From: Paracrocinitomix mangrovi
GTDB lineage: Bacteria > Bacteroidota > Bacteroidia > Flavobacteriales_D > Crocinitomicaceae
Assembly (NCBI RefSeq): GCF_019740355.2
Contig: NZ_CP091819.1
Location: 1,612,001-1,676,000, forward strand
DNA: 64,000 bases
Reading direction: 5' to 3'
This document shows, piece by piece, positions 42,110 through 48,434 of this stretch (its first letter is position 1; each line of letters begins with the position of its first letter). Both the position numbers and the translations under genes were made by a program. The notes below the pieces were generated by a model, which was given only the letters and a program-made list of their open reading frames with translations, had not been told where the DNA came from and ran no database searches.

Positions 42110-42127
42110 TAGAAACTTCCCTTGAAG

Positions 42128-42871
42128 ATGAGCCTCTTTAAAAAATTATTCGGTGGAACTAAGCTTGAGCCTATAGACTTGAGCATTATAAAAACAGACC
42201 TTCACTCTCATCTTATACCTGGGATTGATGATGGATCAAAAAGCATGGAAGACAGTTTAGCCATGCTTAGAAAATTCAAATCACTTGGTTACCAAAAGGT
42301 AATTACCACACCACATATAATGATAGATTATTATAAAAATAATCCGGAAATTATATTGGGTGGTCTTGAAAAGGTAAGGGAAGCCTTGAAAACCGAAAAC
42401 ATAGACATTGAAATAGAGGCTGCAGCAGAATATTATTTGGACCCACATTTTGAAGAGCTTATCGCCAAAAAGGAACTATTGACTTTTGGTGATAATCATA
42501 TATTATTTGAGCTTTCATTCATGGAAGAGCCTCCAAGGGTAAAAGACACTATTTTTTCTTTAATAACTGAAGGTTACAAACCCATTTTGGCTCATGTAGA
42601 AAGATATCCTTTTTATCATAGTAAATGGGACATTATAGAAGAGCTTAAATCAAGGGATTGTTTATTACAATTAAACATCAATTCATTATCCGGACAGTAT
42701 GGTCCACAGGTTAAAAAGATGGCTGAACAGCTTATTGAAAAGGAACTTATTGATGTTATTGGCTCAGACTGTCATCACATGGGACATTTAGAGATGATGG
42801 ACGGACTGAGAACCAATAAACATTTGCATACCATTGCCTCAAAAACCAATCTTTTAAATAAGACTTTATAA
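42128..42871 (+). CDS. CpsB/YwqE-type tyrosine-protein phosphatase (PHP fold)
   Basis: A 247-residue metal-dependent phosphatase. DLHSHLIPGIDDG at about 24-36 carries the first metal ligands (H26, H28) and is the family signature; TTPH near 58-61, the glutamate in EAAAEYYLD, HVERYP, and SDCHHMGH near the C-terminus provide the rest. CpsB-type enzymes dephosphorylate the tyrosine kinase (Wzc/CpsD) that controls capsule or exopolysaccharide chain length. No such kinase is in this window. The ATG at 42128 is preferred to a TTG two codons earlier. It lies just before the tandem small-RNA array. Confidence 0.9.
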   Translation: MSLFKKLFGGTKLEPIDLSIIKTDLHSHLIPGIDDGSKSMEDSLAMLRKFKSLGYQKVITTPHIMIDYYKNNPEIILGGLEKVREALKTENIDIEIEAAAEYYLDPHFEELIAKKELLTFGDNHILFELSFMEEPPRVKDTIFSLITEGYKPILAHVERYPFYHSKWDIIEELKSRDCLLQLNINSLSGQYGPQVKKMAEQLIEKELIDVIGSDCHHMGHLEMMDGLRTNKHLHTIASKTNLLNKTL

Positions 42872-42903
42872 ACAGCTTCAATTCCACTCTTCGGAAAAAG
42901 CTG

Positions 42904-43105
42904 TTCATTCACCGATATTTTCGTACAACTCATCCAAATGGACAAACAAAAGCTACTCACTATTAGTATCTTAGGGTAAGAGCTACGGACGAGTAGCCGC
43001 ATTAAAACGAGATACATTTTTCATCATAATATTTAAGATAATCTATTTATAGATTGAGGTTCAAAAGGGAAAAGAAGGCTACCAAGACAACGGGTAGCCT
43101 TTTTT
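42904..43105 (+). ncRNA. Tandem small RNA candidate, unit 1
   Basis: CATTCACCGA starts at 42906 and ACAACTCATC at 42925. The middle carries a hairpin AGCTAC-GGACGA-GTAGC (42981-42997), different from that of the other units. The conserved block AGATTGAGGTTCAAAAGGGA starts at 43051. The terminator stem AAGGCTACC/GGTAGCCTT (43075-43083 with 43093-43101) differs in sequence from the other units but pairs perfectly, which supports selection for structure. Exact 5' end unknown. Confidence 0.6.
43075..43105 (+). terminator. Intrinsic terminator, array unit 1
   Basis: A 9-bp stem AAGGCTACC/GGTAGCCTT with a 9-base loop and a T6 tract. Confidence 0.88.
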
Positions 43106-43128
43106 ATTTCATTCTTATTTCAAAAGAT

Positions 43129-43328
43129 GTCATTCAACGAGTAAATTTTGCAACTTATCTGAATTAGATATTAAGACAAGTTGATGCTACCTATATTTGA
43201 ATTGTCACAAGGAAACAATGTGACATTTGAATAGAAAAGTATACAACAAAAATATTTAAGATTATCTTTTTATAGATTGAGGTTCAAAAGGGAAAAGAAG
43301 GCTGCGTGACATCACTGCAGCCTTTTTT
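43129..43328 (+). ncRNA. Tandem small RNA candidate, unit 2
   Basis: CATTCAACGAG starts at 43131 and the second block reads GCAACTTATCT at 43150-43160. A TATATTTG -7-like box lies at 43192-43199, followed by a 7-bp hairpin TGTCACA/TGTGACA (43203-43225). The conserved 3' block starts at 43274. Terminator stem AAGGCTGC/GCAGCCTT (43298-43305 with 43317-43324), then T residues to 43328. The internal box leaves open a shorter transcript of about 120 bases. Confidence 0.6.
43298..43328 (+). terminator. Intrinsic terminator, array unit 2
   Basis: An 8-bp stem AAGGCTGC/GCAGCCTT with an inner TGA/TCA pairing possibility in the loop, and T6. Confidence 0.88.
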
Positions 43329-43363
43329 ATTTGTATCAATTTTCACCTAAAATATCCATGGAT

Positions 43364-43566
43364 GTCATTCAACGAGAAATCATAACAACTCATCTGAAAA
43401 TCAAAAATTAATTAAAGATCTACCCTTAAATTTGAAGTAGTTATTTGAAAGAAGGGGAAGTGATGCTGTTTCCGGCAAAACTTTAAAAAATATTTAAAAT
43501 AATCTTTTTATAGATTGAGGTTCAAAAGGGAAAAGAAGGCTGCGTGACATCACTGCGGCCTTTTTT
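43364..43566 (+). ncRNA. Tandem small RNA candidate, unit 3
   Basis: CATTCAACGAG starts at 43366 and ACAACTCATCT at 43385. A TAAATTTG box lies at 43427-43434 in the position of the box in unit 2. A short stem GGAAG/TTTCC encloses TGATGCTG (43456-43473). The conserved 3' block starts at 43512, and the terminator stem is AAGGCTGC/GCGGCCTT (43536-43543 with 43555-43562). Nearly identical to unit 4 over more than 180 bases. Confidence 0.6.
43536..43566 (+). terminator. Intrinsic terminator, array unit 3
   Basis: An 8-bp stem AAGGCTGC/GCGGCCTT including one G-T pair, and T6. Same loop as unit 2. Confidence 0.88.
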
Positions 43567-43601
43567 ATTTGTATGCATTTTCAACTGAAATATTCTTAGA
43601 T

Positions 43602-43802
43602 GTCATTCAACGAGAAATCATAACAACTCATCTGAAAATCAAAATTTAATGAAGGATCTATCCTTAAATTTGAAGTAGTTATTTGAAAGAAAGGGAAGTG
43701 ATGCTGTTTCCGGCAAAACTTTAAAAAATATTTAAAATAATCTTTTTATAGATTGAGGTTCAAAAGGGAAAAGAAGGCTGCTCAGATTGGGTAGCCTTTT
43801 TT
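43602..43802 (+). ncRNA. Tandem small RNA candidate, unit 4
   Basis: CATTCAACGAG starts at 43604, ACAACTCATCT at 43623 and the conserved 3' block at 43750. It differs from unit 3 by only a handful of substitutions up to the terminator, whose loop and right arm are different: AAGGCTGC/GTAGCCTT (43774-43781 with 43791-43798), keeping the stem through a G-T pair. The TAAATTTG box is preserved. Confidence 0.6.
43774..43802 (+). terminator. Intrinsic terminator, array unit 4
   Basis: An 8-bp stem AAGGCTGC/GTAGCCTT including one G-T pair, with a loop unlike units 2 and 3, and T6. Confidence 0.88.
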
Positions 43803-43840
43803 ATTTTGAAGTATTTAAAACCTGATAAAGAGCATTTTTA

Positions 43841-44038
43841 TCCATTCACCGAGATTTTTTTACAACTCATCTTAAAACATAAAAAAATTCAAATAAGAGT
43901 AAGTAAATTGATATCAGTTAACCGCTTTGGGATTATGTGCGGAAAACCGAAATAACTCTAAAACATAACATAATTTATCTTTTTATAGATTGAGGTTCAA
44001 AAGGGAAAAGGGCTGCGTGACAAACTGCAGCCTTTTTT
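43841..44038 (+). ncRNA. Tandem small RNA candidate, unit 5
   Basis: CATTCACCGAG starts at 43843 and ACAACTCATCT at 43862. A hairpin CCGC/GCGG (43922-43942) occupies the middle. The conserved 3' block starts at 43987 and is followed by a shortened spacer (AAAAGGGCTGC). Terminator stem GGCTGC/GCAGCC (44011-44016 with 44027-44032) with six T residues. The convergent YqeY-like gene ends 7 bases after the T tract. Confidence 0.6.
44009..44038 (+). terminator. Intrinsic terminator, array unit 5
   Basis: A 6-bp GC-rich stem GGCTGC/GCAGCC with a 10-base loop and T6. It may also help end the convergent YqeY-like gene. Confidence 0.85.
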
Positions 44039-44044
44039 GTTTTT

Positions 44045-44491
44045 TTACTTATTAAGTTCTTGCTTAACGATATCTGAAATTACTTTACCATCAGCCTTTC
44101 CGTTCAACTGCCCCATTATTGGTCCCATTACTTTACCCATATCCTGAGGTCCGCTAGCTCCAACTGCTGCAATTTTTTCTTGCACTACTTTTCTAATTTC
44201 ATCCTCTGACATTTGCTCCGGCATATATGCGGCAATTACTTCAGCTTGAAATTTTTCATCTGCAGCTAAATCTTCTCGTCCTTCTTTGATATACAAATCA
44301 TAAGTATCCATTCTTTGCTTGTACAATTTCATGATGACTTTATTCTCTGTATCTTCTGTAACTTCTCCTCCTCCACTTGTTGCTTCTAATAGCAGTTTAG
44401 ATTTAATATCTCTTAATGCAGCTAACTTATCTGCCTCTTTGGCTTTCATTGCTGTCTTGATGTCTTCGTTGATTTGTTCTGTTAAACTCAT
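44045..44491 (-). CDS. GatB/YqeY domain protein
   Basis: A 148-residue cytoplasmic helical protein with the YqeY pattern: N-terminal helix LTEQINEDIKTAMKAKEADKLAALRDIKSKLL, the YIKEGREDLAADEKFQAEVIAAYMPEQMSEDEI middle, and the GPQDMGKVMGPIMGQLNGKADGK loop near the C-terminus. It resembles the tRNA-binding C-terminal domain of the GatB amidotransferase subunit, but the free-standing protein has no settled function. Single gene, ending against the last unit of the repeat array. Confidence 0.92.
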   Translation of the reverse strand: MSLTEQINEDIKTAMKAKEADKLAALRDIKSKLLLEATSGGGEVTEDTENKVIMKLYKQRMDTYDLYIKEGREDLAADEKFQAEVIAAYMPEQMSEDEIRKVVQEKIAAVGASGPQDMGKVMGPIMGQLNGKADGKVISDIVKQELNK

Positions 44492-44537: not shown

Positions 44538-47474
44538 TTAATGATGGTTCTTTTTGTGCAATTTAATTCTCACCATTGTTCCAGAAGCTCCATCTGCCCT
44601 ATTTGTTATTGCAAAATCACCTTCCTTATAAAATTGAGCATTATATAGCCTGATTCGATCTTTGATAATAGACAATCCATACGAAGCGGATGTTTTATAC
44701 TTTGATGGCTCATTGGCTTTATATCCTTTTCCATTATCAATTAAAACAACTTCAAAATGATCTGAGTTATCAATAATATTGAGTGTAATCTCTCCCTGGT
44801 AATTTACATCCTTTAATCCATGTACTATAGCGTTTTCAATTACCGGCTGTAAAAGCAATGCGGGAAAAGCAATCCTATTGACGTCATGTTCTGCATTAAC
44901 ATTGACAACAAAATCTATATTACCCCCGAATCTCTTATTTTCAAGATTAACGTAAAGTTTCAAGAAATTTATTTCCTCCGCCAAAGTCACAAATTCTTTT
45001 TTGGCAAAATCCAATGACATTCTAATCAAACTTGCAAAATCAGCAAGGTAATTTAGGGCTTCTTTAGAATCCTTATTGGCAATGTAATTTTGGATAGAAT
45101 TAATAGTATTGAATGTAAAATGAGGATTCATTTGAGAAATTAGAGCCTTTAACTCTAGTTGTACTTTATCAATTTCAAGTTGTTTTCTGTTTTGAATTCT
45201 TCTTAAAAAATAAATAAATAATAAAACAACTACCCCCAAAGTAGTCAAAGCAAAAATCCCAATTGCCCACCAGGTTTTTTGCCAGGGTGTAAGAATTTTC
45301 AATTCAAGTGAGATTGGCTTACTATAATCTCCTTGGAAATAAGAACGCATCAATAATCTAAACTGACCACTTTCATAATTGGGTAGATTTAACTCACTTC
45401 CATTTAAATTTTTCCATTCAGATGACTCATTATCAATTTTATATTGATACTTAATTCCTTTTTTATTGTAATAAGACATTTGATTGAGGTAAACAACAAC
45501 TTGTTGGTTTTCAATAAATTCAATTTTATCATAAATGTAAGTTGTAGTAACTCCATCCACTTTAATTGAATCAATACCTAACAAATCATCATTTAGGAAT
45601 TCACCTTTAGTCAAAGCATCTTTGTGGAAATAACTTACTCCCAATTTTGATGCAACATATAATGTATCATTAAAAAGATAAATCGCATTAATTTCATTAT
45701 CAATCAAACCAGTAGTTTTAGTATAAGAATATACATCAACATTCTTTTGATGTTCATCCACTAAAACATGATTTAAGCCCATATTTGAACCCACCCAAAA
45801 ACTTGAATCGTTCTCAACAAAAATTGTATTAATGGCGGAAGAAAGTAATCCTTTTGTTTGATCGAGATTAATTGTATGCCCCTCTTCATAAAACACAACG
45901 CCTTCTCCTAATGTCCCTATTAAATATCCTCCTCTGAATGCTTCAATTTGATTCATTGTGGAACGAAGCAAGGGATTTAATGTATCAAGATGAGATAGCT
46001 GAGCGTCTTTGAATGCATAAAGTCCACTTTCTGTAGCAAGAAGAGCACTGTCTGGCGTTACTTTTATAAGATCATTTAATTTAGGAACCTCTAATCTAAC
46101 TTGCTCTATTTTATCATCTTTCACCTTATATATATAGGTTTTATCTACAAACCAATTTTGCCAAACACCTTTTGATTGATATAATGCTGAATTGTTTAAT
46201 GTATAATAATATAAGGCACCGGTATCTGACCAGTGATGAAATAAATCCGGAAGATCACTCAGTTCTTTTCGGGAAAAAATTTCTTGAACAGTTCTAAATT
46301 GATCCAATATCATTGTTTCACCAGATTCCCTATTAAGTAAAAAGGCTGAATTTCCCATTTCTGTAATTAACACATAATTGCTATCAACGTAAACCTTTTT
46401 AATGGCATCATCAATTGGTTTGATTAGTGGAAATTTATGAATGTCAATAGATGGTGCATAAAAAATACCGGAAGTACCGGTTGTTACCCATAAACCTTTA
46501 TTGTCATCCAATATCATAGAGGTAACTTGCTCACTTTCCAAAAATGTATATTGTAATTCTAGTTCTCTTGAAAAAACTTCTACTCCTTTTGAAGTTCCTA
46601 CGTAAATCAAATTGTCAAAGACCTCTACTTCATATCCCAAACTTTGTAATCTGGCTGATTTAATCCCTTTTTTAGACACTTCCAATAACAAGTCGCAAAA
46701 CAATATATAAGAAATTTCCTCACCGTAATATGAGTCTGAAATCCCCAATCTGTCATATGCAATAGTGCGTTTATCAATTTTTACTGAATATTTTTTTTGT
46801 TCATGGTAAAGATTATCCAGCACATACAATTCTCCGGGAGACTCAAAATCATCATAATATCCTGCGTAAAATGAATGATCTATCTTCTTATTAAATATTT
46901 CTACACTGAGAAAAATATCAATGTTTTCTCCAATTCCTTTTGATATTCTATCCGGATTGTATGCTGCACCTCTATAATTTATACTCCCGTTACCATCTTC
47001 ATCAATTATGTATAAGCCGGGTCTTTCTTTGGAACTGAAATAAAATCTATCCAAAGAGTCCCTCCAAATACTTCTTATATAATACTTTGAATCAATTAAA
47101 TGATTTATATCCTCATTATGTCGGTATGGTTCAAAAACAACATCAGTGGCAGTTGGATCAAACCAGTAGATGTGATTCTTGGTATCATTAAACCACACCT
47201 TGTGATTGTTTTCTGGATGAAACCTGAAGATTACAATATTTTCAAGACCATCACTATTAGTAAACACCTTAAAATCAACCCCATCAAATCTAACTAAACC
47301 ACGATCTGTAGCAAACCATAGATAACCATTAATGTCCAAGTAACTATCGTGAATTTCAGTTGTAGGCAAGCCATCATCTACGCCGTAATTTCTGAACACA
47401 AGCTCTTGACCAAACAGGCTAAAGCCGTTCATTGCAATTACAATGCACAACAGATATTTATAAGCATTATTCAA
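44538..47474 (-). CDS. Two-component propeller sensor with LytS-type histidine kinase domain
   Basis: A 978-residue membrane sensor. After a signal sequence (to about residue 22) comes a large periplasmic beta-propeller (about 25-640; GLPTTEIHDSYLDINGYLWFATDRG and many LWVTTGTSG-type blades), then a Y_Y_Y Ig-like domain (about 655-735). One transmembrane helix (about 740-760) precedes a coiled coil and a His_kinase domain with SQMNPHFTFNTINSI (H785) and IENAIVHG. The ATPase part has DNGKG and ASYGLSIIKDR. It signals to LytTR-type regulators; one is encoded directly upstream, though a terminator separates the two genes. The ligand is unknown. Confidence 0.92.
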   Translation of the reverse strand: MNNAYKYLLCIVIAMNGFSLFGQELVFRNYGVDDGLPTTEIHDSYLDINGYLWFATDRGLVRFDGVDFKVFTNSDGLENIVIFRFHPENNHKVWFNDTKNHIYWFDPTATDVVFEPYRHNEDINHLIDSKYYIRSIWRDSLDRFYFSSKERPGLYIIDEDGNGSINYRGAAYNPDRISKGIGENIDIFLSVEIFNKKIDHSFYAGYYDDFESPGELYVLDNLYHEQKKYSVKIDKRTIAYDRLGISDSYYGEEISYILFCDLLLEVSKKGIKSARLQSLGYEVEVFDNLIYVGTSKGVEVFSRELELQYTFLESEQVTSMILDDNKGLWVTTGTSGIFYAPSIDIHKFPLIKPIDDAIKKVYVDSNYVLITEMGNSAFLLNRESGETMILDQFRTVQEIFSRKELSDLPDLFHHWSDTGALYYYTLNNSALYQSKGVWQNWFVDKTYIYKVKDDKIEQVRLEVPKLNDLIKVTPDSALLATESGLYAFKDAQLSHLDTLNPLLRSTMNQIEAFRGGYLIGTLGEGVVFYEEGHTINLDQTKGLLSSAINTIFVENDSSFWVGSNMGLNHVLVDEHQKNVDVYSYTKTTGLIDNEINAIYLFNDTLYVASKLGVSYFHKDALTKGEFLNDDLLGIDSIKVDGVTTTYIYDKIEFIENQQVVVYLNQMSYYNKKGIKYQYKIDNESSEWKNLNGSELNLPNYESGQFRLLMRSYFQGDYSKPISLELKILTPWQKTWWAIGIFALTTLGVVVLLFIYFLRRIQNRKQLEIDKVQLELKALISQMNPHFTFNTINSIQNYIANKDSKEALNYLADFASLIRMSLDFAKKEFVTLAEEINFLKLYVNLENKRFGGNIDFVVNVNAEHDVNRIAFPALLLQPVIENAIVHGLKDVNYQGEITLNIIDNSDHFEVVLIDNGKGYKANEPSKYKTSASYGLSIIKDRIRLYNAQFYKEGDFAITNRADGASGTMVRIKLHKKNHH

Positions 47475-47491
47475 AACTTGGTAAATCTAAA

Positions 47492-47524
47492 AAAGAAAAG
47501 CCGTCCTAAGGACGACTTTTCTTT
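47492..47524 (-). terminator. Intrinsic terminator after the LytTR regulator
   Basis: AAAGAAAAG-C-CGTCC, a TAA loop, and GGACG-A-CTTTTCTTT form a long stem with one mismatch. In the minus direction it is followed by a T-rich tract. It separates the regulator gene from the kinase gene. Confidence 0.8.
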
Positions 47525-47687
47525 CGTTTTGGGTATTTTCAATCTCTACAATAGTATTTTTATAATGTTAAATCGTATAGATTCTATAAATCGTCTATTG
47601 TTTGAGCAAAGATAAATACTAAAACAGTGCACCAAAAACTGTAAAAAGCTAATGGACATTATATTTATTTAATGGTAGTTAAATTGA

Positions 47688-48434
47688 TTAAATGGTAAAC
47701 TTATCCAATGCAGATCTTTTTCTTCTGGATACCGGTAAAGTGGTTTGATTCTTTAAAATAAGCTCTCCTCCATTATCTGTAGAATAACGCTCAACGTGTT
47801 TCATATTCACAATAAAAGACTTGTGAATTCTAATGAATTGATCTTCATTCAGTGAACCAACAAAAGACTTAAGCGTTTTGGCGGTAGTATACTTTTTATC
47901 TACACAAAACACTGTTGTATAGTTTCCACTACCTTCAAGATAAATTATCTCATCAATTGTAAGAAATAACATACCGCCTTTATCTGCAATAGCTATTGTT
48001 TCCTGAGATTGCTTTTTTTGAACCAGATCAGACAAGAGTTCTTTTATGTCTAACTCTTGTTTTGGAGCCGTTTTGAATTTGTCAAGAATATAGGTATAAC
48101 ACTCTTCAAGGGAAGCAGGAGAAATTGGTTTAAGCAAATAATTAATAGCGTGATACTTGAATGCCTTGATGGCATACTCATCATAAGCTGTTGTAAACAC
48201 CAGGTGACCATTAAACCCTCCTAATTTATCAAGCATTTCAAATCCATTTAGCTCAGGCATATTGATATCTAAAAACAAAACATCCGGTTCAATTTGATTA
48301 ATGAGTTCGATTCCCTTAATTGGATTATCCGCGACGTAGACTTCTTTGATACCCGGACAGTACGTTTTTACAAGATTCTCCAGTAATTCGCGAGCATTTT
48401 GCTCATCATCCACGATCAAAGCAATCATTTCCAT
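47688..48434 (-). CDS. LytTR-family response regulator
   Basis: A 248-residue regulator: receiver domain with acidic pair near residues 9-10, phosphoacceptor D56 in VLFLDINMPE, and lysine in YLLKPISP near 109. A LytTR DNA-binding domain covers about 145-245 (IIYLEGSGNYTTVF; LNEDQFIRIHKSFIVNMKHVERY). It is the likely output of the propeller kinase encoded next to it. Two ATG codons two residues apart could start it; I use the first. A pair of TTTAAACC repeats lies 40-60 bases upstream and could be an operator. Confidence 0.94.
   Translation of the reverse strand: MEMIALIVDDEQNARELLENLVKTYCPGIKEVYVADNPIKGIELINQIEPDVLFLDINMPELNGFEMLDKLGGFNGHLVFTTAYDEYAIKAFKYHAINYLLKPISPASLEECYTYILDKFKTAPKQELDIKELLSDLVQKKQSQETIAIADKGGMLFLTIDEIIYLEGSGNYTTVFCVDKKYTTAKTLKSFVGSLNEDQFIRIHKSFIVNMKHVERYSTDNGGELILKNQTTLPVSRRKRSALDKFTI

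Follow-up and report, generated by a model that had tools for sequence, protein, structure and literature searches.

The window analysed here, a stretch of 64,000 nucleotides of the Paracrocinitomix mangrovi genome, carries five head-to-tail repeat units on the plus strand (42906-44038) that fill the interval between a CpsB/CapC-type gene and the convergent yqeY gene. Beyond yqeY, as seen from the array, lies a two-component system (TCS) consisting of a LytS-type sensor histidine kinase and a LytTR response regulator. A companion sRNA-like gene with a strong terminator stem sits between these two genes. The coordinates are given in Table 1.

Table 1. Features of the five-unit array and of the neighbouring LytS/LytTR locus (window positions; RNAs and promoter elements are predictions)
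Feature	Position	Strand	Remarks
CpsB/CapC-type gene	42122..42871	+	left neighbour of the array
Unit 1 two-block promoter box, CATTCACCGA-N9-ACAACTCATC	42906..42934	+	
Unit 1 -7-like element TATCTTAG	42967..42974	+	5/6 fixed letters of TAnnTTTG; 61 bp after box start
Unit 1 predicted sRNA, 127 nt	42979..43105	+	start inferred from the -7 element; end at T6
Unit 2 two-block box, CATTCAACGA-N9-GCAACTTATC	43131..43159	+	
Unit 2 -7 element TATATTTG	43192..43199	+	6/6 fixed letters
Unit 2 predicted sRNA, 125 nt	43204..43328	+	
Unit 3 two-block box	43366..43394	+	
Unit 3 -7 element TAAATTTG	43427..43434	+	6/6 fixed letters
Unit 3 predicted sRNA, 128 nt	43439..43566	+	
Unit 4 two-block box	43604..43632	+	
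Unit 4 -7 element TAAATTTG	43665..43672	+	6/6 fixed letters
Unit 4 predicted sRNA, 126 nt	43677..43802	+	recent duplicate of unit 3
Unit 5 two-block box	43843..43871	+	
Unit 5 weak -7-like element TAAATTGA	43904..43911	+	4/6 fixed letters; 61 bp after box start
Unit 5 predicted sRNA, 123 nt	43916..44038	+	
Invariant 25-nt core TAGATTGAGGTTCAAAAGGGAAAAG	unit 1 43050..43074; units 2-5 from 43273, 43511, 43749, 43986	+	
yqeY	44045..44491	-	right neighbour of the array, convergent
LytS-type sensor histidine kinase with propeller repeats	44538..47474	-	Pfam His_kinase 1.5e-21, Reg_prop 3.8e-08
Sixth, companion sRNA-like gene	47488..47602	-	directly downstream of the LytTR gene; fold z -6.1
Companion gene -7 element TATCTTTG	47607..47614	-	
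CCATT direct repeats	47647..47695	-	20-bp period, three copies; first overlaps the LytTR stop codon
LytTR response regulator	47688..48434	-	Pfam Response_reg 8.6e-19, LytTR 5e-25

The preliminary description of this DNA had placed the units at intervals of 235-240 bases, and three of the four steps between successive box starts agree with this (225, 235, 238 and 239 bases). Its other spacings hold throughout the array: blocks A and B of the box are offset by 19 bases in 5/5 units, and the AGATTGAGGTTCAAAAGGGAA block starts 124-127 bases after block B. Every unit closes with a stem and T6. Units 3 and 4 are a recent duplicate pair, with 187 identities, 12 mismatches and 2 gap positions from the box to T6. 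Among units 1, 2, 3 and 5, the identity is 93% for block A, 90% for block B and 43% for the 9 bases between them; it is 38% from block B to the -7 element, 69% in that element, 31% over +1 to +50, 76% in the 22 bases preceding the core, and the 25-base core itself is 100% identical. This segment-wise profile describes a unit composed of a promoter, a variable 5' domain and a fixed 3' part. The interiors are nearly random with respect to each other, as had been said of most units, with the exception of the duplicate pair. The five units have no ORF of at least 12 codons in common on either strand, which bears out the earlier remark that a shared reading frame is lacking; some short ones are common to units 2 and 3 or to units 3 and 4 only, and the DNA of each pair is nearly identical where they lie.

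The repeats of the array go beyond what chance would give in the 4.37-Mb genome. An exact match to the box CATTCAMCGA-N9-RCAACTYATC is found only at the five units, no further site turns up at up to 2 mismatches, and at up to 3 mismatches there are six sites, the five units and one with 3 mismatches, compared with 4 for the reversed-pattern control. The 19-base core pattern has exactly five occurrences, with the next-best sites carrying 3 mismatches. A search for the exact box in named genomes gave 10 single matches in scattered taxa, which were put down to chance.

The preliminary description had treated the two blocks of the box as parts of a structured RNA. In 5/5 units, however, the distance from the box start to the start of a TAnnTTTG-type element is exactly 61 bp, and TAnnTTTG is the consensus of the sigma-A -7 box of Flavobacterium psychrophilum, located at -12 to -5 (PMC9723704). 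The predicted sRNA starts were placed from this position of the -7 box, which puts the two-block box at about -73 to -45, where an activator site would lie. Because the -7-type element sits at a fixed distance beyond the box start, the CATTCA/ACAACTCATC blocks most likely belong to the promoter DNA ahead of the start, as a binding site for a regulator, and not to a structured RNA. A sigma-70 promoter scan, whose consensus is that of E. coli, stayed at chance level, with 5 found and 5.5 expected.

The predicted array RNAs are 123-128 nt long and have folding z-scores of -2.1 to -4.5 relative to shuffles, a stability to which the terminator stem and a hairpin in the 5' part contribute most. The invariant GAGGUUCAAAAGGGAAAAG stretch is largely single-stranded in the predicted folds; the core is purine-rich (GAGG, AAGGGA) and lies just 5' of the terminator stem. 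An intrinsic terminator with T6 had been ascribed to every unit. By folding, stem and T6 are present in all of them, but the terminator scan (loop limit 3-8) accepts unit 5 only, 1 found compared with 0.9 expected by chance, and the stems of units 1-4 come from folding. The -7 elements and terminator stems, expected of trans-acting sRNA genes with their own promoters and ends, are predictions from sequence and folding. In the alignment of the five units with the sequence of a congener, G001, the terminator stem has 13 pairs, paired in every cell, two of them changed on both sides; 124/500 shuffles reach this count of changed pairs and 18/500 reach the other measures. The covariation support for the earlier idea of structured RNAs is thin. 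A coding reading of the core (TTG..LRFKREK) was rejected: its continuation varies among the units while no base of the core DNA does, which fits a constraint at the RNA or DNA level better than coding. In agreement with the earlier failure to name a family, Rfam 15 has no match in the window at gathering score (the best array score is 30 bits, the cut-off 55), and nothing credible for the array at E<=1.

Conservation in relatives had been proposed as a check, and the core is indeed present in two further species of the genus, G001 and G003. In G001, the same core and stem are found beside yqeY, and the 25-nt core is identical to that of all five units. Contigs C24 and C49 of this assembly both terminate in the cpsB-yqeY interval. 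The yqeY contig breaks off 10 bases ahead of a TAAATTTA, the array box would fall beyond the contig end, and the cpsB gene is at the end of another contig, as expected if repeats broke the assembly; the breaks suggest that a repeat array was the cause. Since the yqeY four-fold sites of the source genome and G001 agree at only 17/39 (0.436), the invariant 25-mer is under constraint. In G003, an exact TAGATTGAGGTTCAA followed by a stem-loop stands beside yqeY, directly after the stop codon of a 149-aa ORF that faces yqeY. It is a single copy (L055:4390-4897), there is no TCS and no promoter at the site, and the core hairpin is absent from the best fold. Possibly, this arrangement is the ancestral state of the array, an older 3' UTR form. 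The core was not found in G002, the yqeY of which was not located either.

Wider searches produced several candidates that were set aside. The 14-mer core has 18 matches outside the genus among 240 family genomes, 17 in long open frames and one without a visible terminator, and none was accepted as a homolog. In nine family genomes (L187, L188, L192, L193, L195-L197, L201, L206), an exact antisense match of the 14-base core falls on VEPQSE codons, in frames which we take to encode EF-G. The source genome has no exact core match antisense to VEPQSE, and the antisense match is taken as a coincidence of a conserved protein. A CM search (R1) of the 240 family genomes returned 33 at E<=0.01, with the source genome and G001 at 88 bits or more and the others at 38.1 bits or less; of the latter, G003 was inspected, and the other 30 are presumed terminator look-alikes. 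Three further weak matches from a DNA search of 99 relatives (G043, G011 and G030; E 1.6e-5 to 8.1e-4, query 4-48 only) have no core at the matching place.

G001 carries the kinase and LytTR pair at the same place as the source genome, with 35% and 49% identity, respectively, and in these two genomes TCS and core co-occur at one place. The stretch with ftsZ and yqeY has no kinase or LytTR match at E<=1e-8 in G003, G010, G013, G032 and G027 (5/5). Close orthologs of the LytTR regulator are confined to four genomes of two genera, the source genome and G001 in one and G009 and G164 in the other, among 240 family, 399 sampled order and 395 sampled class genomes. A more distant LytTR in G537 (5e-73) is without the companion architecture described below, and the repeats near the LytTR genes of G009 and G164 are short two-copy repeats only. 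The source genome has at least nine LytTR-type regulators (9 at E<=1e-40 among 11 scored of 40 candidates).

The companion gene deserves a closer look. Directly after the LytTR stop codon, 4/4 close orthologs have a 20-bp-period direct repeat (CC[AG]TTWAAT-like), a -7-like element and a terminator. In the source genome the second CCATT copy starts 61 bp before the companion -7; in the order G000 (the source genome), G001, G009 and G164, the distance from the start of copy 2 to the -7-like element is 61, 61, 61 and 60 bp, the elements are TATCTTTG, TACTTTTA, TAATTTTG and TATCTTTG, and the fold z-scores are -6.1, -4.2, -2.2 and -2.5. A comparison was made across 42 LytTR loci, 30 of which passed an ORF and duplicate filter (the four orthologs and 26 others). 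Repeat, spacing and terminator are combined in 0/26 of the others, one of which has a half-site at the right spacing without repeat or terminator and two a terminator only, and dinucleotide shuffles of the four downstream stretches yield repeat plus spacing in 0/5000 each (a lone half-site at the spacing in 15-63/5000); both figures overstate the architecture, since the rule was set post hoc from the same sequences and the significance is inflated. The equality of spacing between the array and the downstream promoters is the less circular part of the evidence. In G009 and G164, the LytTR gene follows the kinase gene, and beyond it comes a gene that points back towards it, so the downstream promoter cannot belong to the kinase in these two; the companion terminator could work for that convergent gene as well. 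No significant sequence likeness is seen among the four companion RNAs or between them and the array (10 pairs, best 0.055).

A LytTR site is described as a pair of repeats, each 9-11 nt long and 11-13 bp apart, for which there is no common consensus (PMC4847170); SilA uses two 9-bp direct repeats separated by 11 bp (PMC4162386), which makes a 20-bp period. The genes downstream of LytTR show this pattern, with about 9 nt repeated at a 20-bp period in 4/4 orthologs. The self-match of the array box peaks at 21 bp (0.421, versus 0.215-0.368 at the other offsets from 8 to 31), where only 4/6 comparable invariant columns agree; by this measure other offsets are no worse, with 2/2 at 10 and 3/4 at 13. 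Its half-sites, CATTCAMC and AACTYATC, are only loosely like the downstream CC[AG]TTWAAT, so a single regulator for both is not proven. Relative to the -7 element, the half-sites are at about -61 and -40 in the array and at about -81 and -61 downstream, with an additional one at -41 in the source genome and G001. The regulator of the array boxes, which the preliminary description did not name, is probably the adjacent LytTR two-component system.

We are inclined, with somewhat better than even confidence, to see in this locus a TCS-controlled array of sibling trans-acting sRNAs that resembles LhrC1-5 in its organisation and belongs to no known family. This reading draws on the anatomy, the fixed spacings and the invariance of the units, the TCS linkage in two species and the companion architecture in four genomes. 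A sibling sRNA array had already been proposed, and that proposal gains from the core and terminator in two further species, the fixed -7 elements, the absence of a common ORF and of an Rfam match; what most likely does not hold is the inclusion of the two blocks in the RNA. The phosphorylated LytTR protein of the adjacent pair would bind the two-block boxes and switch on five separate promoters with TAnnTTTG-type -7 elements, and the sixth gene, directly downstream of the LytTR gene, would be turned on by the same protein. Each array transcript would consist of its own 5' domain, a small A/U hairpin, the invariant GAGGUUCAAAAGGGAAAAG and the terminator. The RNAs most likely would base-pair with mRNAs, the invariant GAGGUUCAAAAGGGAAAAG core being the candidate pairing region for common targets and the 5' domains candidate private pairing regions for differing ones. 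If so, one signal could release RNAs with different targets together.

The Pfam Hfq model finds nothing in the source genome (0/1), a model that matches 5/14 control genomes. This fits Bacteroides, a genus without obvious Hfq in which the sRNA GibS acts by base pairing (PMC7366714). With no Hfq found, pairing by the array RNAs would be protein-free or use another chaperone. Complements of the core at up to 2 mismatches number 46 outside the array; five of the 25 checked are near an ORF start, two of which (L169 and L184) were dropped as antisense to longer ORFs, and the remaining three, compared with about 1.3 expected by a rough estimate, are not significant. At these three, L161, L173 and L175, the complementarity to the core is weak; the ORFs that start nearby have signal-peptide-like N-termini and are possible targets of the array core.

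There are other ways to account for the same units. A sibling sRNA array could obey another regulator, with the LytTR pair just a linked neighbour, which we regard as unlikely but worth serious thought: the half-sites of the array are not those of the repeat conserved behind the LytTR genes, the array box matches itself only modestly at 21 bp, and the genome has at least nine LytTR-type regulators to choose from. Yet both promoter types keep 60-61 bp to the -7 element and have half-sites that almost coincide in helical position, at about -61 and -40, array core and TCS are at one place in two species, and the genome offers the box no other site at up to 2 mismatches. There is a small chance that the RNAs pair with no mRNA at all and titrate an RNA-binding protein, in the manner of CsrB/RsmX-like sponges. 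Multiple copies, TCS linkage and a purine-rich core just before the terminator stem would suit such a role, and RsmX, with five copies under GacAS, provides a precedent (PMC4132741), but the core is present once per RNA and not many times.

Function in trans is dispensed with altogether if the units are a duplicated terminator or 3'-UTR element of the convergent cpsB-yqeY region which stops transcription both ways. The position of the G003 core and stem, directly after the stop codon of an ORF facing yqeY, speaks for such an element, and on the opposite strand the pyrimidine-rich run after the stem could serve yqeY. We still consider it improbable, as it leaves unexplained the box and -7 element at fixed spacing in every unit, the five copies, and the invariance of TAGATTGAGGTTCAA outside the stem and T-run. 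That the units are what is left of a mobile element, or of toxin-antitoxin repeats, is very improbable indeed. Tandem direct repeats may recall such elements, and 11 Pseudomonas phage records contain weak 47-bp pieces (85%, E 2e-3); these pieces are all that came of the check for mobile-element ends in phage, plasmid and viral collections. There is no plasmid match, no exact viral-contig match to the 21-base core pattern, and no short ORF common to the five units on either strand.

If the array is indeed a set of LytTR-controlled sRNAs, its construction invites a further and quite tentative thought, which we hold at well under even odds. The units may be cassettes for making new regulatory RNAs: the regulator-dependent promoter and the 3' scaffold, made up of core and terminator, are both fixed, and the 5' domain between them has been exchanged or diversified from one tandem copy to the next until almost random, so that one sensor would release differing specificities together. 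The 3' UTR of the congener might be an older form of the scaffold, and the companion genes in two genera would suggest a private small-RNA output of this LytTR lineage. The sRNA regulons of Hfq-less Bacteroidota are poorly understood, and the locus would offer a TCS-sRNA module complete in itself, for which starts and a regulator site are already predicted and near-duplicate units could act as internal controls. It would also illustrate one possible origin of sibling sRNAs, from a 3'-UTR element to a promoter-driven gene to a tandem array, with the diversification confined to the 5' domain. Further genes of this kind could be sought by the arrangement of LytTR and companion sRNA.

Searches of the open-licence literature turned up no array that combines LytTR control with five tandem units in which a fixed 3' half is joined to a mostly unrelated 5' half. 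Among the regulators of known sibling sets, LisR is an OmpR-type regulator, LuxO acts with sigma-54, and CiaR controls the streptococcal csRNAs. The array shares its phylum with two sRNAs of Bacteroidota, GibS and the Flavobacterium sRNA Rfp18, the latter with predicted mRNA targets (PMC9723704); the consulted portions of the reports describe no tandem TCS-controlled array for either (PMC7366714, PMC9723704). The Qrr RNAs of Vibrio, up to 4-5 siblings switched on by one phosphorylated response regulator (PMC4211561), resemble the array as a sibling set for which a single response regulator is proposed. Their loci are dispersed whereas the array units are in tandem, and the array has no Rfam match of any kind, which bears on Qrr if Rfam includes a model for it. 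OmrA and OmrB are tandem siblings with conserved ends and a divergent middle (PMC4211561); both the 5' and the 3' ends are common to them, in contrast to the 3' part only in the array. The streptococcal csRNAs, with 2-6 copies, distal or in tandem (PMC4211561), are multicopy siblings as well, under CiaR and not LytTR. The pairing of a LytTR-type regulator with a neighbouring RNA is known from RNAIII and AgrA of staphylococci, where the regulatory RNA lies beside the two-component system that governs it (PMC3673130), although RNAIII is one long transcript, with a peptide-coding frame in S. aureus, compared with five or six short RNAs without a common ORF here. LhrC1-5 of Listeria monocytogenes belong to a different phylum and a different class of regulator, they carry three CU-rich motifs and not one AG-rich core, and no Rfam match, at gathering score or E<=1, is LhrC, which bears on this family if Rfam includes a model for it. 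They are, nonetheless, five homologous sRNAs with their own promoters, all LisRK-dependent, and the nucleotides important for their induction lie between about -75 and -53 (PMC4132741, PMC5880928). This region is close to the position of the array box, and the same organisation is seen in the array, where the same candidate element stands upstream, 61 bp before the -7 element, in 5/5 predicted units.
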